Below are positions 6,635 through 54,347 of a stretch of 64,000 nt of DNA, in pieces. Position numbers and translations under genes: made by a program. The stretch is from an uncultured Clostridia bacterium (GTDB lineage: Bacteria > Bacillota > Clostridia > Christensenellales > Borkfalkiaceae), in contig CANQHV010000005.1 in assembly GCA_947624005.1 (NCBI GenBank), forward strand, positions 1 through 64,000, written 5' to 3'. How positions within the stretch are numbered: position 1 is the stretch's first letter; every line of letters starts with the position of its first letter. The notes below the pieces were generated by a model. It had not been told where the DNA came from, searched no databases, and saw only the letters and a list, made by a program, of their open reading frames with translations.

Positions 6635-7585
6635 TTAATCCTGTAAAGTTTTTGCTATTTCCATAATGCGCCGCATACGGTGGTTCAGACAGCTTTTCGA
6701 GATATTGAGCCTGTCCGACAGTTCCTGCATAGACGCGTTTTTATCGGCAAGTCGGCACTCGGCTACGTCGAACAGACCTCTGTCAAGACTTTGAAGCCCG
6801 ACCGTCTGCGATATGATTTCGATGGCGCGGACCTGATTTACCGAAGCGGTAACGGTTTTGTCTATATTCGATACCGAGCAATTGTTCACTCTGTTCAGAT
6901 TATTGTTATTGTCCTTTAATTTTACGATTTTATTGAGCTTTTTCAGACTTTCGGGCACTGACATAATGTGCAAAAGGTCGGAAATGACTTCCTTGCTTTT
7001 GATATACACGACCGCCGCGTCTTTGCGCGAAACAAGCTTAGACAGAATATCGAACTCGCACAGCAGTTCGGAAAAGTCCGACGCGGTGATTTTATTCGAA
7101 AAGACCACCTCGAAGTGATAGCCCGTGCGGCTGTAACTGTCCTCGTCTGGCAAGGTGCAACTGCCGCCGCCCAAAAACGCGCCCCTTAAAAACGCCTTTT
7201 TACAGCACTTTTTCTGCAAAAGTTTGCCCGAAATGCCGAAATTGAGATATTTTCCGTCGTCGTCCTCGCCGACTATTCCGAGGCGGGTCAAAAGCTTGTC
7301 GCTCTTTTCGTTTACGCACGAAAAAACGTGCTTGTCCCTCCCCGACAGCAAGTCGTACTTCGACGACGAAGAGGTTGCCGAAATGCCGAAACTTTCGAAA
7401 ATTTCGGCAAAATACTCGGCGGTTTTATCGTTTTCGGTCACAAGTTCGAACCCGAAAAAGCCGTCGCGTACTATCACGCTGCCGCTCGTTCTGATAAACG
7501 CAGACAAAGCCGCGAGTTTACAGCATTCGTTTGCGGGCGGGCGCGAAGTTATTTCGTTTTTCAGTTCTTCGGTAAAGTTTTGCAT
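6635..7585 (-). CDS. whiA: WhiA-type DNA-binding regulator
   Basis: A 316-residue WhiA homologue, normal length. Family architecture is a degenerate LAGLIDADG homing-endonuclease-like N-terminal domain (FLRGAFLGGGSCTLPDEDSYSRTGYHFEV region) and a C-terminal helix-turn-helix (MQELSDRLNISKSCLNHRMRRI). WhiA is needed for sporulation in Streptomyces and influences cell division and chromosome segregation in Bacillus. The ATG overlaps the stop of the PHP gene (TAATG), showing translational coupling. In many Firmicutes whiA follows rapZ and yvcK; here it follows murB and a PHP enzyme, a rearranged form of that cluster. Confidence 0.95.
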   Translation of the reverse strand: MQNFTEELKNEITSRPPANECCKLAALSAFIRTSGSVIVRDGFFGFELVTENDKTAEYFAEIFESFGISATSSSSKYDLLSGRDKHVFSCVNEKSDKLLTRLGIVGEDDDGKYLNFGISGKLLQKKCCKKAFLRGAFLGGGSCTLPDEDSYSRTGYHFEVVFSNKITASDFSELLCEFDILSKLVSRKDAAVVYIKSKEVISDLLHIMSVPESLKKLNKIVKLKDNNNNLNRVNNCSVSNIDKTVTASVNQVRAIEIISQTVGLQSLDRGLFDVAECRLADKNASMQELSDRLNISKSCLNHRMRRIMEIAKTLQD

Positions 7586-8361
7586 TACAGATTTTTCAGT
7601 TTGTACTCCGCAAAACGGAATTTCGGCAGTCTGCCGTCGATATTTTCTATCTTTTCGAGAGGCACGTCAGCTTCGGCAAGCAGTTCTTCGGCAATTTTGG
7701 TATCGCCTACCCTGTCCGCGGAATGCGCGTCCGAGTCTATGACGAATTTTACGCCCGTTGAAGCCATCAGGTTAAGCTCTTCGGCTGAAATGTGCCGCTT
7801 TTTGGTATTGATTTCGATGTACGTTCCGTAGTCGGCGCAACACTTCGCCACCTCTTCGAGGTTGCAATAGCACTTGTAATTTATATGCGTAAGAATGTCT
7901 ATCGGGTTGTTTTTGATTGCGCTTATATACGCTTTCGTAGTATTGTCAACGACCTTTTGCGACGGTTTTTTGCCGAACTTGTACGCGGCGTAATTTTTCA
8001 TCATTATGTTATACATATCTTTGAAGCTTGCGTAATGCAGAACTTCGTGTATGCCCATAAGATAAATATCGAAAGCGGCAAGGTCGTCGGGCTTCATATC
8101 CGTGTCGCCGTCAAGCGAAATGAGATTGCTTTCCATTCCCATAAGCACTTTAACTCCCGTAAGCTTTTCCGCCTCGGTGCACTCGGCGCGAAGGTCGGGA
8201 AGTTTTTTGCGTTTAAGACCGAACAGCATATGGTTAAAACCGTGGTCGGTTACGGCAATTTGTTTAAGATTAAGCTTTTTTGCGGCGAGCGCGTTTTCAA
8301 GCACCGTGTTTTTTCCGTGAGAATAGGGCGTATGAGTATGATAATCTGCGGTTAATTCCAT
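7585..8361 (-). CDS. PHP-domain phosphoesterase
   Basis: A 258-residue stand-alone PHP-domain metalloenzyme. The metal-binding motifs are HTHTPYSHG at the N-terminus, AVTDHGF, the Glu of GMESNL, HINYKC and, near the end, DSDAHS. This set matches YcdX/histidinol-phosphatase-like phosphoesterases, which hydrolyse phosphate esters using a trinuclear metal centre. The true substrate is not identifiable; no his genes are nearby. It is packed between murB (stop and start directly abut) and whiA (1-bp overlap), so it is co-expressed with cell-wall and regulatory genes. Confidence 0.85.
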   Translation of the reverse strand: MELTADYHTHTPYSHGKNTVLENALAAKKLNLKQIAVTDHGFNHMLFGLKRKKLPDLRAECTEAEKLTGVKVLMGMESNLISLDGDTDMKPDDLAAFDIYLMGIHEVLHYASFKDMYNIMMKNYAAYKFGKKPSQKVVDNTTKAYISAIKNNPIDILTHINYKCYCNLEEVAKCCADYGTYIEINTKKRHISAEELNLMASTGVKFVIDSDAHSADRVGDTKIAEELLAEADVPLEKIENIDGRLPKFRFAEYKLKNL

Positions 8362-17953: not shown

Positions 17954-20900
17954 TTACTTCTTACCGTCGTCCACGTCGTCGTAGAAGCCGTCGTCGTCGG
18001 AGTTTATATCTCGGTAGATAATTTTCGGTTCTGCCTCGGCAGGGGCGGTTTGAGCCTCAACCTTATCCTCTTTCTCCTTTTTCTTTTTCATTACGACTAT
18101 CACGATTATAATCGCGGTAATAATCAACGCCGCGCCAACGCCCACGATAAGCCATACCCACCAAGGTATGCCGTCATTTTCGTCCGTCTGCGGCGACGGC
18201 TCGTCGGGTAACGGCGCGCTGACTACCACGGTGTTCGTCACCCTCTCTTCGTCGGCAAAACGGTAGTTCTTCGCGTTCGCGCCGACAAGCACGGCGGTAA
18301 CCTGATACTCGCCCTCGGCGGTTATGACCTGACTATGGTCCGACAGTTCGAAACGCACCTGCAATTCGTTCCAATCGTCCGCCACATTCGACATATCAAG
18401 CGACGCAAGCCCGTCCAAAGCTATCGTTTCGCCCGTAAAGGTATATTTGAGCTTTGACGAATCCCAATTCAGCGCAAGCTCCCTTTGCGTTATTTTCAGT
18501 TTGTCGAAGTTGGTATCGTCGTCGGGATTGTTGCCGCCCTCGCGGTAGATTACGGTATACACCGAATTTTCGTCAAGCTTAAAGTTGATATAATACTCGC
18601 CGCTGTCGCTGTACTTGCCGAACTCGTTAATTCTGCGACAGCCGAGGCTTACGCCCTGCGCAATCTCGTCGAAGAAAGTCTTGGTAAAGTCCACGCCGCC
18701 CTTCGTAACCGAAAGATACTGCGCGGGCATATCTTTTATATCTTCGAAAATTTCTTCGGGGTCGGGGGTTACGCCGTAAGGAATTTCGTACGCTTTTTTG
18801 AACACTACCTTTACGACCTCGGAATCCTTTGCCACCTCAACGCGCCATTCGCCGTCCAAATCTTCGTGGTTGGGCGCGACGATATGATAATATACTACGT
18901 ATTTTCCGACCTTTTTCACGTCCACGTTCAAAGGATAGTCGGGGTCGTCTATATCAAGCTCCGTTATGTCGATATAATCTTCCCCGCCCAAAGCAAATTC
19001 GGGGCGGGCGGGCTTTTCGCCGCCGTCGTAAGGCATGGGCAAAGTCGCGTAAATTGTGATATCCTGATCGGCGACCGTATCGAAGTTCGCGAATTTACCG
19101 TTCTTCTTCTTGCCGAGCGTGACCGCAAACGGCGCTTCGCCGCCGCCCGTAACCTCATCCTGTATAAAGCTGTTGCCGTTGTCGTTGAGTTCGACTATCT
19201 CGGCGGGCTTTATTTCGAACTTAAATTCAAGGTGGTCTTTCGGTCCCTCCGCCGTTTCGAACACGAGTTCTCGGTTCTTCGGGTATACCTTTACGGTGTA
19301 CTCGCCCGCGTCCGTCTGAACGTTCTCGTTCCCCTCAAAGTCCATAGTCAGCGGGTCGAAGCCCTCGGGCATATAGGTAAGTTCGTCGCCCGTGTATACG
19401 AAGTTATCCGCGTTCGGGTCCGCCGTCGGGGCGGTTATCGAATCGTTCGACACGGTGTATACGCCGTTCGTAAAGGTAACGGTGTAATTGCCGTAATCTC
19501 CGTTATCGGCGCAAAGTTCGTACTCGCCCACTTCAAGCGAGCTGTCAAGTGCGGTGCGCACGCCGTTGCTCTTTATATAGAACGTTATCAGCCCGTCGAA
19601 TACCGCCGTCGTATCGCCCGCCACAAGTCCGCCGTTTACGTCAGTAAGCGTGAAACTGCTCTGCGGCGCACTGCCGTGCGTGTGCCCGCCGTCGTTGATT
19701 TTCAGCGTTATCGGCTTCGGCGTAACCGTAAGCGTGCCGTCTTTAAACTCTATATTATAGTTGTCCGAAGTGTAGCCCTTGGGCGTGATTTTATAGCTGT
19801 TGCCGACGTTGCCGCCCTGCGCATAGTTAAAGTCATAGTCGAGCGTGCCCGAAAGGTTGCTTTCGCTTTCACCCTCGGCAAAACCGTCACACTCAACGCC
19901 CGCGCCCGCGGGTCCGTCGCCGTATGTTATAGTTTTATCCTTTGCCGTAACCGTCAGCGACTTTTTATTTATGGTTATGGTAAACTGCGTTTTGCCGTCG
20001 CCCGTCCACTGATACTCGTCCGTCTTTCTGATTGTAATATCAAGAGTATACGTGCCCGCGTTGGTCGCGGTAAATTCGCCCGTATTTTCGTTAAACTCCG
20101 CGCCCGCGGAAGCCGAGCCGCTCATTGTTTCTTTATCGAAACCCGAAAGCGTAAGCGTATGAACTTTGCCGTCGTAAGTTTCGTTCACGTCGTCGCCCGT
20201 AGGTTTTGCAAGTCCGCCTATACCTATGGTATACGTCGCTTCCGCGCCGTCCGCCATTACGTAGTTTTTGACGGTATCTTTCAGAATAACGGTTACCGTA
20301 TAGCTACCCTTGCCTTGCGGAAGACCGCCAATGCCGAGTTCGCCCTCGCCGTCAACCGCAAAACTCAAATCGTAGTCAACGCCCTTTGTAAGGCTGTCGC
20401 CGACTGCAAGCGTTTCGAAGTCAACGTCTATACCGTCGTGTTCTTCGCCCGTGTACTCGCCCGAAGAATTTTTAAGCGAAAACGTCAGCTCTTTCGGCGT
20501 TATAGTCAGATATTTGGTTACCGTGTCGGGCAAATCGTAATTATCGTTTTCGCCGCTGAAAGTTACGGTTACTTCATATTCGCCTACGTCTTGCGGCGCG
20601 GTTGCGCTGTCGTATACTGTGTCTGTGCCGCTTTTACCTTTATAAGCGTATGTCGGCACAATCCAATCGGGCAACCCCTCAATTTCGTGCGATATCTCTT
20701 CGCCCGTATACGACGTTTCGTAATCATTGTAGCCCGTTATAACATATTTTGCCTTTGCTACGGTATAAGTGCCGCTATACTCCGATATTTCGTAGTTGTC
20801 ATTGCCGCAAGTGGGAATTATGTTGTAAATGCCCGCGCCTAACGAAGAATCTATTGCAAGCTCGTTGCCCGTGTCGTCCGACTTCTTTACTTTATAAGTA

Positions 20901-23236
20901 AGGCTCAACTCGGTTTTAACGTCTGGCGCGGTTATAGCCGCACTGCCCCACCAATTGCCGCTACCGTCGCGCGAGGCTTCCGCCGTAATTGCCGCGGGCG
21001 TATTTCCGTATGTGTGCCCCGCGGACGACAATGTCAATTTGACTTTCCTCTTCTTGACCGTAACCGAGGGTCGCTGTGAATTTGCCGAATCTCCCCACTC
21101 AAACGTGATATAATTTTGCGAACCGTCCACTCCCGCTTCGCCTAAATATTTAACAAACAGATAGTAGGTTTTTCCCGCGGCAAGGCGCATATTTCCGCTG
21201 TCGTCAACTTTATATTCCTTGCCCGATACCGTATCCACGCTGTCACGGAAATAGAACTCGAAGTTACTTGAATTACGTATAAAGTCGGCAGTTCTGTCTT
21301 CCTTTATTTCAATTCCGTCCTCTCCCAAAACGACAATACCGTTTGTTTCGGGGATATCGCCTAAAATGGCGGTACGCAAAGCTGTTTGCGTGTGCGCTAT
21401 ATCGCCGTATTCTATTTCGGCGGAATGTTTTGAGGGATTTTTCAGCTTTATAGTCAGCTTTTCGCTGAAAATATGAACCGAATAAAAGTCGTACAGCGTT
21501 TCAAAGTTGTCGCCCGCTTCCGCCTTGAAATAAACGCAGTAGCCGCCCGGGTCAATTGCTTTGAAACTTGTGTCAGCGGCTGAATAATCTTTCCACTCGG
21601 TGCTGTGTTCGCCGTCTTTCAGGTCGTTAAGGAATTTTTGTATTTCGCTGTCGCTATGCTGGCTCTCTTCGTGAGTTGTTATGATATATTTTATCGTAAT
21701 ATCTCCCGCCGAAAGGCTCGGCTTGCCGACAAGCGACAACGGAAATTTTCCGTCGGTTATATCGGGTAGACATAAAGTCTGCGCGTGCGATTGGTCGGAG
21801 TGGTATGTAAACTCCTGCGACTGCGCAAACCCCGTTTTCCATTCTTCGCCTATTTTCGCCTTATTAATTTTAAAAGTGAATGTTACAGGGTCGTTGCCGC
21901 CCTCTTTCCAACCAGCCTCTGGCGGAGCAATCTCTACTTTATATTCTCCCGCATTAGTCGCAGTTATGGTATCGCTTTCGCCATTCCACCAACTTATATC
22001 GCTGCCTTGCGCAGTGTATGTTACGTCGCCAAAATCGGGTAGAGTAAAAGTCTGCTCCGTTCCGTTAAAATCAAATTCCTTTGTTAATTGGTCACCCGTA
22101 GGCTTTGTAGGTGAAATCCCGCTTGCCGCTCCCGCCGCAGCGGTCAAATTTAAGTGAAGCGCAGGACGTACTAGGTACGAATTAGCTACTGATTCGACCG
22201 AGGTAGACAGATAGAAAGCGCTACCGCCACTGCCAGTGTTTCCCGAACGGAGCCATGCATTAGATTCGTTCAAACGTTGTTCCGAGACCGTGTTCCAAAT
22301 ACCTACGCTATAATTATATCCGCCCGTTTCCGCCAATGAAGGCAACCATAAAAGGTCGTCTTTCCACGCCGTATAGCCCGTTTTTCCACGATAATAATAT
22401 GTTTGTCCTTTGTCATTAAAATTTGCTTGTACATCAGTTCCCCAAGCATCATTGTTTAAATCTAAATTATAATAACCCCCGGTTTCTTTCGAGCTTTGGC
22501 TGTACTGCCAATCTATATAACGAGGCGCGACAAGATAGTCTGCTATATCTTGCTCCCCGTCAGTACCCATTGTAAATTTTGCGTATGTATTGCTTGTTTT
22601 TTGACTTATCTCACTTTCAGTTTCTACCAATGTATCAATATCTTTCCAATATTTGCCGCCGTTGTTTAAAACTTGCGAACGAATATAACTTGTGCCATAC
22701 ATATTCGAGGGATATGTACCGTCGTTAGAATCATAGCTTTTGTTCCATTGCGCTTTATATTTGCCCTCATTAGGAACATGAGCAAGCCAAAGCGTTAAAA
22801 CAATATCGTTCCTTGCCGCCTTACCGAGATTTGGCGCAATGTCGTTTACACCCTCATAAGAATTGCTATCATCAGGTTCTGCATATTCGGTAGTTGCCTT
22901 TGAAATATAAACGGCAAGCCAATTCATACCGCCGAACTTTATTATTATTTTTTTACCTGCCACAGAGTTTGAAACGAGAGTATTATCGTCCACCGCCTTT
23001 TTAACTTCTTCGTATTTTGTAGCGCCGTCTACAAGCTGACCGTAAAGTGATATTAAATTTTCACCGTTAAAAGGTTTCTTGCCACCTTGCCAAATTTCAT
23101 TGACCGTTGCGGCGTGCTCTACATTATAAGCATAGACACTTTTAGTTTGCTTCGATAATAAAACCGCACTTATAAGGAGTGTTGCTATAAGTAACACTGT
23201 AAGTGCGGATATGAAAAACTTTTTTATTTGCGACAT
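17954..23236 (-). CDS. Very large MBG-repeat surface protein with C-terminal membrane anchor
   Basis: A 1760-residue exported protein. The start at 23236 follows AGAGGTG; upstream in-frame codons overlap the leader hairpin. A signal peptide (MSQIKKFFISALTVLLIATL) is followed by a roughly 250-residue domain resembling DUF6273 (ends AWLRSGNTGSGGSAFYLST, then SYLVRPALHLNL). The central roughly 1100 residues are many MBG/Ig-like repeats, each with cores such as ITYGDGPA, NDNYDL, GTYTVAKAKY, TNAGEYKVEI and YTGEEHDG. Near the end GIPWWVWLIVGVGAALIITA is a transmembrane anchor, followed by MKKKKEKEDK and a roughly 35-residue acidic tail with many Asp. No LPxTG motif is present. A role in adhesion or as a stalk is inferred only. 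It is preceded by a structured leader RNA with an intrinsic terminator. Confidence 0.88.
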   Translation of the reverse strand: MSQIKKFFISALTVLLIATLLISAVLLSKQTKSVYAYNVEHAATVNEIWQGGKKPFNGENLISLYGQLVDGATKYEEVKKAVDDNTLVSNSVAGKKIIIKFGGMNWLAVYISKATTEYAEPDDSNSYEGVNDIAPNLGKAARNDIVLTLWLAHVPNEGKYKAQWNKSYDSNDGTYPSNMYGTSYIRSQVLNNGGKYWKDIDTLVETESEISQKTSNTYAKFTMGTDGEQDIADYLVAPRYIDWQYSQSSKETGGYYNLDLNNDAWGTDVQANFNDKGQTYYYRGKTGYTAWKDDLLWLPSLAETGGYNYSVGIWNTVSEQRLNESNAWLRSGNTGSGGSAFYLSTSVESVANSYLVRPALHLNLTAAAGAASGISPTKPTGDQLTKEFDFNGTEQTFTLPDFGDVTYTAQGSDISWWNGESDTITATNAGEYKVEIAPPEAGWKEGGNDPVTFTFKINKAKIGEEWKTGFAQSQEFTYHSDQSHAQTLCLPDITDGKFPLSLVGKPSLSAGDITIKYIITTHEESQHSDSEIQKFLNDLKDGEHSTEWKDYSAADTSFKAIDPGGYCVYFKAEAGDNFETLYDFYSVHIFSEKLTIKLKNPSKHSAEIEYGDIAHTQTALRTAILGDIPETNGIVVLGEDGIEIKEDRTADFIRNSSNFEFYFRDSVDTVSGKEYKVDDSGNMRLAAGKTYYLFVKYLGEAGVDGSQNYITFEWGDSANSQRPSVTVKKRKVKLTLSSAGHTYGNTPAAITAEASRDGSGNWWGSAAITAPDVKTELSLTYKVKKSDDTGNELAIDSSLGAGIYNIIPTCGNDNYEISEYSGTYTVAKAKYVITGYNDYETSYTGEEISHEIEGLPDWIVPTYAYKGKSGTDTVYDSATAPQDVGEYEVTVTFSGENDNYDLPDTVTKYLTITPKELTFSLKNSSGEYTGEEHDGIDVDFETLAVGDSLTKGVDYDLSFAVDGEGELGIGGLPQGKGSYTVTVILKDTVKNYVMADGAEATYTIGIGGLAKPTGDDVNETYDGKVHTLTLSGFDKETMSGSASAGAEFNENTGEFTATNAGTYTLDITIRKTDEYQWTGDGKTQFTITINKKSLTVTAKDKTITYGDGPAGAGVECDGFAEGESESNLSGTLDYDFNYAQGGNVGNSYKITPKGYTSDNYNIEFKDGTLTVTPKPITLKINDGGHTHGSAPQSSFTLTDVNGGLVAGDTTAVFDGLITFYIKSNGVRTALDSSLEVGEYELCADNGDYGNYTVTFTNGVYTVSNDSITAPTADPNADNFVYTGDELTYMPEGFDPLTMDFEGNENVQTDAGEYTVKVYPKNRELVFETAEGPKDHLEFKFEIKPAEIVELNDNGNSFIQDEVTGGGEAPFAVTLGKKKNGKFANFDTVADQDITIYATLPMPYDGGEKPARPEFALGGEDYIDITELDIDDPDYPLNVDVKKVGKYVVYYHIVAPNHEDLDGEWRVEVAKDSEVVKVVFKKAYEIPYGVTPDPEEIFEDIKDMPAQYLSVTKGGVDFTKTFFDEIAQGVSLGCRRINEFGKYSDSGEYYINFKLDENSVYTVIYREGGNNPDDDTNFDKLKITQRELALNWDSSKLKYTFTGETIALDGLASLDMSNVADDWNELQVRFELSDHSQVITAEGEYQVTAVLVGANAKNYRFADEERVTNTVVVSAPLPDEPSPQTDENDGIPWWVWLIVGVGAALIITAIIIVIVVMKKKKEKEDKVEAQTAPAEAEPKIIYRDINSDDDGFYDDVDDGKK

Positions 23237-23252
23237 AGTGCACCTCTTCGGT

Positions 23253-23396
23253 AAAAAATAAGGTGTGCCGTAAGGCACACCTGCAAGTCTACCTTTTGGC
23301 ACTTGCTCAATCAATTTTACGCATCGCGAAAATTATACCAAAAAGGTTACACATTGCCGAAACGTGTAAACGATGCGCATATTAAATTGATTGAGC
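23253..23396 (-). ncRNA. Structured leader RNA A: pseudoknotted attenuator of the MBG gene
   Basis: Between promoter and gene lies a foldable leader. P1 is GCTCAATCAATTT (23384-23396) with AAATTGATTGAGC (23305-23317). P2 is CGCATCG (23371-23377) with CGATGCG (23320-23326). An apical hairpin P3 (TTACAC/GTGTAA) follows. The linker after P3, ACCTTTTTGG (23338-23347), can pair with CCAAAAGGT (23291-23299) beyond P1, forming a pseudoknot. A terminator (AGGTGTGCC/GGCACACCT, 23261-23282) with ATTTTTT ends the element before the ribosome-binding site. RNA B at 23477-23626 has the same architecture with different helix sequences. No known riboswitch consensus was recognised. Confidence 0.75.
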
Positions 23397-23402
23397 ATAG
23401 TC

Positions 23403-23431
23403 ATTATATGACATTTTTTAAAACTTGTCAA
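23403..23431 (-). promoter_or_regulatory. Promoter of leader RNA A and the MBG surface protein
   Basis: TTGACA (23426-23431), 17-bp spacer, TATAAT (23403-23408), minus strand: a perfect consensus. The start falls at the first base of P1. Confidence 0.9.
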
Positions 23432-23476
23432 TACCTACGTTTTGCAGAACGTCGGCTGAAACAAAGTTTTAACCAT

Positions 23477-23626
23477 AAAAAATAAGGTGTACTCCCGAAA
23501 GAGTACACCGCATGGTATCTCTTACGGTTACCACACCTCTAACTGATTCTTTACGAATTATGAAAAGAGATACACAATGCCAAGATTGTGCTTCGTAAAG
23601 AAAAATTATTCAGTTAGAAATGTGGT
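23477..23626 (-). ncRNA. Free-standing structured RNA B, homologous in architecture to leader A
   Basis: P1 pairs 23610-23626 with 23530-23546 (17 bp with mismatches); P2 is TCTTTACGAA/TTCGTAAAGA (23592-23601 with 23548-23557); P3 is CACAAT/ATTGTG (585-590 with 573-578 of the 23 kb block). The linker GTATCTCTT (23565-23573) pairs with AAGAGATAC (23515-23523) beyond P1. A terminator GGTGTACTC/GAGTACACC (23486-23509) with TTATTTTTT closes it. It has its own promoter and no ORF before the next promoter, so it should give a stable RNA of about 150 nt. The P1, P2, P3 and pseudoknot sequences all differ from A while pairing is kept. Confidence 0.75.
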
Positions 23627-23632
23627 AGCTAT

Positions 23633-23661
23633 ACTATACCATAAAGCGTTGAAAATGTCAA
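23633..23661 (-). promoter_or_regulatory. Promoter of RNA B
   Basis: TTGACA (23656-23661), 17-bp spacer, TATAGT (23633-23638), minus strand. The start falls at the base of P1. Confidence 0.88.
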
Positions 23662-23721
23662 CGGGTAATTTTTACGGCATAGAGCAAGCTTTTTTCAATT
23701 TAATGCCGCGCCGCCGTAAAG

Positions 23722-23737
23722 TGTTTTTATAAAAACA
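23722..23737. repeat. 16-bp perfect AT palindrome
   Basis: TGTTTTTATAAAAACA, perfectly self-complementary. First of a series of palindromes in the gene-free stretch 23.66-24.05 kb, where I see no supportable coding region. Confidence 0.8.
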
Positions 23738-23750
23738 TTTAGAGATGTTC

Positions 23751-23790
23751 GGTTGCTCCGTTGCAACGGAGCAACCGCCCGCGGGCGGTT
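23751..23790. repeat. Two overlapping perfect palindromes (26 and 18 bp)
   Basis: 23751-23776 is GGTTGCTCCGTTG and its exact inverse; 23773-23790 is AACCGCCCGCGGGCGGTT. They share AACC and cannot both be extruded at once. Confidence 0.9.
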
Positions 23791-24055: not shown

Positions 24056-24084
24056 TTGACAAATCAATAAAAACGTCGTAAAAT
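24056..24084 (+). promoter_or_regulatory. Promoter of the short antisense RNA
   Basis: TTGACA (24056-24061), 17-bp spacer, TAAAAT (24079-24084), plus strand. Confidence 0.85.
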
Positions 24085-24090
24085 AAAATC

Positions 24091-24182
24091 ACAACAAGGG
24101 CAAACCCTAAACGGTCAGCCCCGTGTCTTGGTTAAAAAATAACCGCCACAGTCAGCTAAACTTTTGGGCGGTTATTTTTTTA
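24091..24182 (+). ncRNA. Putative antisense RNA (antitoxin-like) converging on the 34-codon ORF
   Basis: A promoter and the terminator at 24134-24180 delimit a non-coding RNA of about 90 nt. It contains small hairpins (AGGG/CCCT, ACGG/CCGT). Its 3' half, about 50 nt, is exactly complementary to the 3' end of the convergent mRNA, including the last codons. This 3'-overlap geometry resembles TxpA/RatA and BsrG/SR4 type I toxin-antitoxin pairs. RNA existence is inferred from promoter and terminator only. Confidence 0.6.
24134..24180. terminator. Shared bidirectional terminator of the convergent small-RNA pair
   Basis: 14-bp stem AAAAAATAACCGCC/GGCGGTTATTTTTT with a 19-nt loop. It gives a U-run on both strands, ending the antisense RNA (+) and the 34-codon mRNA (-). 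Confidence 0.88.
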
Positions 24183-24276
24183 TTGTCAAAAAGATTTTAT
24201 CTTTTGTAACGCGGACGGAGGCTATGTATCCTTTATCGAGCAAGCTCAATAAAAAGAGTATAAGCTGTGTCCTCAT
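24172..24276 (-). CDS. 34-residue peptide with hydrophobic N-terminus (type I toxin-like)
   Basis: A 34-codon ORF beginning MRTQLILFLLSLLDKGYIAS and ending in a basic KDKIFLTIKK tail. Support for reality: a perfect promoter (24342-24370), a strong GGGGGTG 7 nt before the ATG, and a stop inside the terminator stem. A hydrophobic segment of about 9 residues (LILFLLSLL) followed by charged residues is shorter than the membrane span of known TxpA/BsrG toxins, so membrane action is uncertain. I do not recognise the family. The convergent antisense RNA overlaps its 3' end, which suggests toxin-antitoxin or other RNA-level control. Confidence 0.6.
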   Translation of the reverse strand: MRTQLILFLLSLLDKGYIASVRVTKDKIFLTIKK

Positions 24277-24341
24277 AAAATTTCACCCCCTTTACGGGGC
24301 GTGATTAACCGCCTTCGGGAAACCCTTGTTGCTTACCTTAT

Positions 24342-24370
24342 ATTATAATTATTATGTCGAATATTGTCAA
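24342..24370 (-). promoter_or_regulatory. Promoter of the 34-codon gene
   Basis: TTGACA (24365-24370), 17-bp spacer, TATAAT (24342-24347), minus strand, perfect consensus. The leader is about 60 nt. Confidence 0.9.
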
Positions 24371-53986: not shown

Positions 53987-53998
53987 ATAAAATAATAT

Positions 53999-54347
53999 GA
54001 GTTTATCCGTAAGCCGAGTTCTGTCGTGTGCGGTCATCTATCTACCCTTGCCGTCGCCGGCAAGTTCAAGCGATATTGACGGATAAAAGCGGACGGGCAG
54101 CCCTCCGCATCAAAGCGAGCCTTTATCCCAATCTTGCATCGGGTGGGGTTTAACTGGCTCGCCGCGTTACCGCGGCGACGGTGAGCTCTTGCCTCGCCAT
54201 TCCACCCTTACAGCTTGCGCTGCGGTATATTTCTGTTCACTTTCCTTGAAGTCGCCTCCTCCTGCCGTTAACAGGCACCCTTGCCCTGTGATGCTCGGAC
54301 TTTCCTCACGCGGCTTTCGCCGCCCGCGACCGCATGGATAACTCAAA
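53999..54347 (-). ncRNA. rnpB: RNase P RNA, bacterial type A-like
   Basis: The minus strand holds the conserved 5' GAGGAAAGTCCGAGC region, ACAGGGCAAGGGTGCC, ACAGAAATATACCGC, GGTAAGGG-type CTGTAAGGGTGGAATGGCGA, and the closing ATAGATGACCGCA and 3' GAACTCGGCTTACGGATAAA, which pairs back to the 5' end. It is about 350 nt, as expected for the catalytic subunit that matures tRNA 5' ends. Boundaries are estimated from pairing and from the promoter. Confidence 0.95.

Follow-up and report, generated by a model that had tools for sequence, protein, structure and literature searches.

Elements A and B, two tandem RNAs encoded on the minus strand of the 64,000-nt stretch of DNA analysed here (the window), are probably cis-acting, orphan riboswitch-like transcription attenuators that a ligand would turn OFF; we put the probability of this reading at roughly 0.6. 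The attenuator part is well supported, and putative ligand sensing is its most likely purpose. If the reading is true, a widespread orphan regulatory RNA of the Clostridia, present in at least 75 of 391 genomes of the class, is missing from Rfam 15. It would offer a handle on surface-protein control in uncultured gut bacteria and, through its ligand, could lead to a new intracellular signal.

Layout and fold of elements A and B

Read 5' to 3' on the minus strand, element B comes first, then element A, and then the ATG (23236) of a gene for a 1760-aa surface protein. The features are as follows, with the evidence in brackets.

23633..23661, minus: promoter of element B (TTGACA, 17-nt spacer, TG ahead of the -10, TATAGT; 6 nt from the -10 end to P1)
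23477..23626, minus: element B, whole RNA, predicted +1 at 23626 (covariance models R1, 148 bits, and R2, 107 bits)
23610..23625, minus: B P1 5' strand, partner 23531-23546 (sequence, fold, covariation at the P1 base)
23531..23546, minus: B P1 3' strand (sequence, fold, covariation)
23592..23601, minus: B P2 5' strand, partner 23548-23557 (sequence, fold)
23548..23557, minus: B P2 3' strand (sequence, fold)
23573..23590, minus: B P3 hairpin, CACAAT-CTTGGC-ATTGTG (sequence, fold)
23565..23573, minus: B pseudoknot 5' strand, GTATCTCTT (sequence, covariation, partner permutation)
23515..23523, minus: B pseudoknot 3' strand, AAGAGATAC, also the inner antiterminator strand (sequence, partner swaps, covariation)
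23495..23527, minus: B antiterminator hairpin, 23514-23527 with 23495-23509 (RNAfold, partner-swap tests)
23477..23509, minus: B intrinsic terminator, hairpin 23486-23509 and T-tract (promoter and terminator scan)
23403..23431, minus: promoter of element A, TTGACA-17-TATAAT (6 nt from the -10 end to P1)
23253..23396, minus: element A, whole RNA, predicted +1 at 23396 (R1, 78 bits; R2, 92 bits)
23384..23396, minus: A P1 5' strand, partner 23305-23317 (sequence, fold, covariation)
23305..23317, minus: A P1 3' strand (sequence, fold, covariation)
23370..23379, minus: A P2 5' strand, partner 23318-23327 (sequence, fold)
23318..23327, minus: A P2 3' strand (sequence, fold)
23347..23369, minus: A P3 hairpin, loop with GGCA (sequence, fold)
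23338..23347, minus: A pseudoknot 5' strand, ACCTTTTTGG (sequence, partner swaps)
23291..23299, minus: A pseudoknot 3' strand, CCAAAAGGT (sequence, partner swaps)
23265..23302, minus: A antiterminator, GTGCC/GGCAC and AAGGTAGAC/GTGTGCCTT (sequence, partner swaps)
23252..23282, minus: A intrinsic terminator, hairpin 23261-23282 and T-tract (promoter and terminator scan)
17954..23236, minus: gene 3' of A, 1760-aa secreted MBG-domain surface protein (ATG 16 nt past the element)

P1, P2 and P3 of both elements fold computationally as an earlier note on this DNA had claimed, with minimum-free-energy z-scores of -8.2 for A and -7.9 for B and none of 200 shuffles as good. The plus-strand z-scores are nearly equal (-6.6 and -7.8), as expected of inverted repeats. 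Because both strands fold similarly, the strand call rests on the promoters, the terminators and the gene. The note had described both sigma-A promoters as perfect, which is right for A (12/12) and not for B (11/12, TATAGT). The 9-bp pseudoknots that it proposed are present in both elements, ACCTTTTTGG/CCAAAAGGT with one bulged T in A and GTATCTCTT/AAGAGATAC in B, as are intrinsic terminators with TTATTTTTT ends; the 1760-aa gene does follow A, and no gene lies between B and A's promoter. Complementarity is kept through differing helix sequences, as the note held, but A and B are not wholly unlike, since GGCA(A/T)TGTGTA in P3 and an AATA junction occur in both. Three findings go beyond that note: the antiterminator, the fixed distance from promoter to P1, and eight more strong copies elsewhere in the genome.

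By eye, the DNA 5' of B (23627-23780), hairpin CGGTTGCTCCGTTGCAACGGAGCAACCG included, is near-identical to that upstream of the copy at 3772 on contig C11 of the same genome; as the flanks of B recur there, an intergenic cassette was duplicated. We considered and rejected a mobile element or DNA-level repeat: duplicated cassettes are seen, yet the helices vary while their pairing stays, which points to a function at the level of RNA.

A family of elements in the Clostridia

A blastn search of the stretch against its own 1.22-Mb genome gave clear copies on six further contigs. Covariance model R1, built from 15 elements, finds ten matches in this genome at E ≤4.4e-12 (A and B included) and one weak antisense match; R2, built from 18 divergent elements with P1 as sole structure, recovers these ten and the antisense match together with two further weak matches (E 3.4e-4 and 0.005). 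Of the other eight strong copies, six precede a gene for a lipoprotein or secreted surface protein, one precedes a gene for a zinc-ribbon membrane protein, and the last (contig C13, 20224) belongs to a tandem as its free-standing member. Copies on contigs C8, C1 and C12 (L012:270-536, L013:7949-8170 and L014 near 7522-7780) carry between P1 and P2 an insert with hairpins of its own.

A pattern taken from the conserved 3' region and containing some of the pseudoknot strand occurs in 30 GTDB genome stretches, all titled as Clostridia MAGs. R2 finds the element in at least 67 of 93 genomes of the genus (E 0.01), in at least 80 of 297 genomes and 34 of 125 genera of the order (E 0.001), and in at least 75 of 391 genomes and 47 of 222 genera of the class (E 0.001). 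These counts of copies and genomes are lower bounds, since searches of more than 40 genomes scored no more than the 7 to 47 top candidates of each genome; up to at least 12 matches occur in one genome. Among 398 genomes of the phylum, scored on the best candidates per genome, R2 (E 0.001) and R3 (1e-4) find the genome of the window alone. This sample also serves as a false-positive control, and it included class genomes without a match (at least 14 of the 20 others listed).

The set used below comprises 197 unique elements from 200 entries. Two weak matches, L242 and L182 (+ strand), were dropped from one list of 106 matches; from another of 105 we dropped copies (L085, L089, L092, L032, L038 and both of L079), L082 and two antisense matches, and L016 was added. 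Outside the set stand L024, L028, L073, L076, L090, L105, L138, L140-L144, the viral loci and L081, a match of R1 but not of R2. At L018, L023, L024 and L027, from three MAGs, a common sequence that starts (A/T)CCACGTCATCTGA and continues into a hairpin lies 3' of the element. Five same-strand tandem pairs, with gaps of 64-315 nt, occur among the 197 elements, so the two tandem RNAs of the earlier note are a special case.

The earlier note had recognised no known class here, and Rfam 15 bears this out: no family reached threshold over A or B in a search of the whole window, nor over an element at 45 loci searched at E 1 (20, 20 and 5, including the A locus and viral contigs), where only tRNAs beside elements passed. 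A known Rfam class was thus rejected as an identity for the element. A 601-nt stretch searched at E 10 gave only seven chance-level matches, all well under their thresholds (microRNA, snoRNA and one Bacteroides sRNA family). The window's sole Rfam matches at threshold are RNase P class A (53994-54345) and a tRNA (202-274). We found no description of the RNA class in the literature, the supplementary motif lists of PMC11109978, PMC8632094 and PMC8040213 aside, and it is apparently undescribed so far.

A convincing same-strand gene start (by a simple score) lies within 160 nt downstream of 167 of the 197 elements; the 30 that lack one include B. By a simple rule, 72 of the 167 downstream proteins have a lipobox and a hydrophobic N-terminus, and 114 a strongly hydrophobic N-terminus. 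A Pfam run on 134 of them (50-620 aa) identified 31 with BspA-type LRR_5, ten with Zn_Ribbon_1 and five with Listeria-Bacteroides repeats. Upon inspection, the downstream genes in the genus of the window mostly encode lipoproteins, surface proteins and zinc-ribbon proteins, with exceptions, and many of those in more distant lineages encode small proteins of unassigned function. Across the downstream genes we identified no common pathway hinting at a ligand. Eight downstream proteins run through PADLOC yielded only weak matches (best E 1.6e-4). A type III toxin-antitoxin RNA (ToxI) consists of short pseudoknot repeats in tandem ahead of a ToxN-like toxin; the units here are about 150 nt long with promoters of their own, and ToxN is absent from the 25 commonest of the 75 Pfam families among the 134 proteins.

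The elements also occur on viral contigs. A pattern scan of IMG/VR returned 17 stretches; R3 scores an element at ≥92 bits in 14 of these, of which five have identical scores and near-identical sequences. By ORF listing, a gene start lies within 60 nt of the element in eight of the 14, the genes including those for a DUF6591 lipoprotein and a PASTA-domain protein; in the remaining six the sequence has a start codon after the element, but no ORF is listed at that point. Among the neighbouring genes are members of phage exonuclease and polymerase-like families. Under the IMG convention, contig numbers not starting with 33000 presumably denote isolate genomes, in which case cultured hosts would exist. 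Blastn against INPHARED phages and PLSDB plasmids gave no matches or chance-level ones. A few genes after the element, one viral contig (L254:5510-8233) encodes a 908-aa protein that matches PHROG 4291 (labelled RNA-dependent RNA polymerase) at 1355 bits, and proteins resembling it are among those listed for most of the remaining viral contigs.

Pairing partners and promoter geometry

Comparison of homologues revealed the covariation that the earlier note had read from A and B: P1 and the pseudoknot keep their pairing through sequence change. In a MAFFT alignment of 18 divergent sequences (A5), 89.6% of the cells of the P1 base and pseudoknot are paired, versus 80.5% upon column shuffling and 31-54% with the strands slid. 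All seven counted P1 pairs are altered on both sides, with 94.4% of cells paired (locus L079, one base out of register in A5, shows no P1 pair), as are four of the nine pseudoknot pairs. One of five covariation measures on A5, further pair types, was matched by 20 of 500 shuffles, and RNAalifold on A5 recovered P1 and no other helix.

Since A, L064 and L080 pair at just six of the nine pseudoknot columns of A5, which for A is a register effect, the pseudoknot was tested without an alignment. The segment that follows the P1 3' strand pairs with its own interior at a mean of -14.7 kcal/mol, versus -11.6 with other interiors (sd 0.18), in 186 of the 197 elements, the other 11 being left out because this strand was not located or the interior was short. 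In the 115 of these 186 that lack GTATCTC the values are -14.6 and -10.7 (sd 0.25), and none of 2000 permutations was as low. The signal is less clear in a hand-picked set (23 usable; L077 has no linker, and L081 was excluded as degenerate), where 301 of 20,000 permutations were as good, because GTATCTC is nearly invariant there. Pairing is poor in the pseudoknots of L079 and L080, which 171 and 112 of 200 shuffles equal. Outside the genus, many members have a longer pseudoknot helix, for example TAAAAACGTACTCTC/GAGAAGTGCGTTTTT in L145, that includes the 3' side of P3; strand exchange between P3 and the pseudoknot is therefore probable. Unpaired nucleotides of the junction and P3 loop are conserved, a conservation biased to the starting set because R1 and R2 were built from elements found by similarity.

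The same switch segment is complementary to the 5' arm of the terminator. In B the antiterminator pairs CCG-AAGAG-AUACC with GGUGU-CUCUU-CGG; in A, GUGCC and AAGGUAGAC pair with GUGUGCCUU and GGCAC; and a copy on contig C12 has CCUUU/AAAGG in place of CCG/CGG. Over all 197 elements the own antiterminator duplex averages -16.9 kcal/mol, versus -10.8 with terminators permuted (sd 0.21; lowest of 2000, -11.6), and it reaches -10 kcal/mol or lower in 196. For 24 chosen divergent elements the values are -15.9 and -11.2, with none of 20,000 permutations as good. The own terminator outpairs 95% of the others in only 115 of the 197, many of which are near-identical. None of 23 foreign terminators pairs better with A's strand (own duplex -14.6 kcal/mol); five of 23 foreign strands pair better with A's terminator, eight of 200 shuffles reach A's duplex energy, and 63 of 200 match the antiterminator of L070. 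By computation, the switch strand thus pairs specifically both with P3 and the linker and with the terminator 5' arm, as an expression platform does, and the two pairings are mutually exclusive.

RNAfold energies average -15.3 for the antiterminator and -14.6 for the terminator, with a gap of at most 2 kcal/mol in 83 of the 197 elements, a near-balance as in a switch. In A the terminator is the stronger (-16.1 versus -10.5), and in B the two are level (-15.7 and, for the antiterminator, -16.0). As the antiterminator is the more stable in 112 of 197 elements and the terminator is the stronger in A, a 'default ON' is not uniform.

A further helix spans the terminator: the spacer before it pairs with bases just 5' of the ribosome-binding site, for example CCGTGCGGT/ACCGCACGG and GCAGGGCG/CGCCCTGC. 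In the 167 gene-linked elements this helix averages -6.3 versus -4.5 permuted (sd 0.17), with 65 at -6 or lower; in the 30 others it averages -3.7 versus -3.2 (sd 0.34), with seven at -6 or lower. Its 3' half is made past the terminator, so it can act on read-through mRNA alone, where it may shield the leader or keep the U-tract off the ribosome-binding site.

A sigma-A-type promoter scoring at least 9/12 precedes 160 of 195 elements (3.8% of mononucleotide shuffles); two of the 197 had too little upstream DNA, and a long insertion misplacing the model start was counted as a miss. Exactly 6 nt separate the -10 end from P1 in 147 of the 160. Among 159 elements with the -10 in place, the -35 TTG is conserved at 99, 95 and 90%, the TG at -15/-14 at 97 and 96%, and P1 always opens with a purine (G in 102, A in 57). 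The promoter lies outside the covariance models and is therefore independent evidence that the element starts are right and that the RNA begins with P1, the first nucleotide of which is the predicted +1. This near-invariant distance is an unusual architecture, and it raises the question of why the start nucleotide must sit in a helix.

Proposed mechanism and alternatives

We propose that a strong extended -10 sigma-A promoter would start the RNA at nucleotide 1 of P1, which would close the 5' end in a helix. P1, P2 and P3 with the conserved junction and loop nucleotides may form the receptor domain, and the segment directly after the P1 3' strand the switch strand. In the OFF state this strand would pair with P3 and the linker (the pseudoknot), leaving the terminator 5' arm free, so that the terminator folds and transcription stops. 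In the ON state it would pair with the terminator 5' arm and loop as the antiterminator, essentially complete before the terminator 3' arm is transcribed, and polymerase would read into the gene. We infer that a small-molecule signal stabilises the pseudoknot and so turns OFF surface proteins, lipoproteins and viral accessory genes. In the tandem, transcripts from the upstream promoter would meet two gates and those from the gene-proximal promoter one. The pseudoknots of A and B differ and their P3-loop bases are common, so both may answer one signal. A broader and tentative reading, which we rate as slightly less likely than not, is that of a new riboswitch of the whole class: its aptamer would begin at the start nucleotide, a common signal other than c-di-GMP would gate the surface proteome of gut Clostridia and the accessory genes of their phages, the switch helix would partly exchange with P3, and a second helix would close over the terminator after read-through.

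The attenuator could also work as proposed but with an RNA-binding protein or a factor associated with RNA polymerase, in place of a small molecule, stabilising the pseudoknot or antiterminator. A diffuse regulon of unrelated accessory and surface genes, viral contigs included, would suit this, as could the fixed +1/P1 geometry for an initiating or early-elongating polymerase. We consider it unlikely, though not negligibly so: the pseudoknot sequence is wholly different in A and B and varies widely over the class with pairing kept, and a protein would therefore need to recognise either shape or the small number of conserved loop bases. That there is no sensor at all, the element being a terminator of fixed ratio, conserved for folding alone, that would set expression or create leaky, insulated units, is distinctly unlikely. 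The close energies of antiterminator and terminator and the strong, near-invariant promoters agree with it, but the conserved unpaired nucleotides of the junction and P3 loop exceed what a partial terminator needs, and two mutually exclusive helices are preserved in many copies.

The earlier note had named a riboswitch, an attenuator or a trans-acting pair; the gene linkage of 167 of 197 elements and the conserved antiterminator speak for the first two, and we found no support for the last. A terminated RNA of about 150 nt, acting in trans as a stable small RNA with the downstream genes secondary, would explain why both predicted ends lie in helices and why 30 of 197 elements, B included, lack a convincing gene. 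It is nonetheless improbable, given the same-strand gene start within 160 nt of all the others, a terminator-bridging spacer helix whose specificity is clear in gene-linked members and slight in the 30, and an antiterminator with no evident purpose in a trans-acting RNA. To a leader-peptide (ribosome-stalling) attenuator or a T-box we give almost no credence. Both share the mutually exclusive terminator and antiterminator, and two sub-threshold Phe_leader matches overlie elements (L130 at 32.9 and L142 at 29.1 bits; threshold 55). However, uORFs with a ribosome site are not enriched and indeed rarer than in shuffles (12 of 197 versus 22.5), the T-box model has no match in the window stretch (E up to 10) or at 40 loci (E up to 1), and amino-acid genes are absent from the 25 commonest of the 75 downstream Pfam families.

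Our preferred reading, the ligand-responsive attenuator, invites comparison with known switches. The c-di-GMP riboswitches (GEMM-I and c-di-GMP-II) occur in multiple copies, attenuate surface-type genes and are also found on mobile DNA. The A/B family resembles them in the multi-copy attenuation of surface-type genes and differs in its fold and in a start site fixed to P1. In the preQ1-I, ZTP and fluoride switches, a pseudoknot strand by the expression platform competes with the antiterminator or terminator, as the adjoining strand does here; unlike in those switches, its partner lies in P3 and the linker within a long, variable P1-P2 arm, and the helices are free in sequence. Tandem riboswitches (reviewed in PMC9481103) likewise place two switches in series ahead of one gene; here, by contrast, A and B each have their own promoter and terminator, and their pseudoknot sequences differ.

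Models of c-di-GMP and ydaO-type c-di-AMP riboswitches gave no match in the window, the stretch or the 45 loci. GGDEF (PF00990, E 1e-5) was identified in 15 of 25 chosen carrier genomes, with two matches in the genome of the window, and was not found in the other ten, nine of which are 94-99% complete. This makes c-di-GMP unlikely, and we disfavour it as the common ligand. A DAC protein is encoded in all 25 carriers; being so widespread, it neither supports nor excludes c-di-AMP.

Elsewhere in the window, a perfect minus-strand promoter (24370-24342) lies ahead of a 34-codon hydrophobic ORF (ATG 24276, by eye) and a terminator-like hairpin, and a convergent plus-strand promoter (24056-24084) faces the 3' end of this ORF. 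From its sequence, the region 24056-24370 looks like a type I toxin-antitoxin pair.
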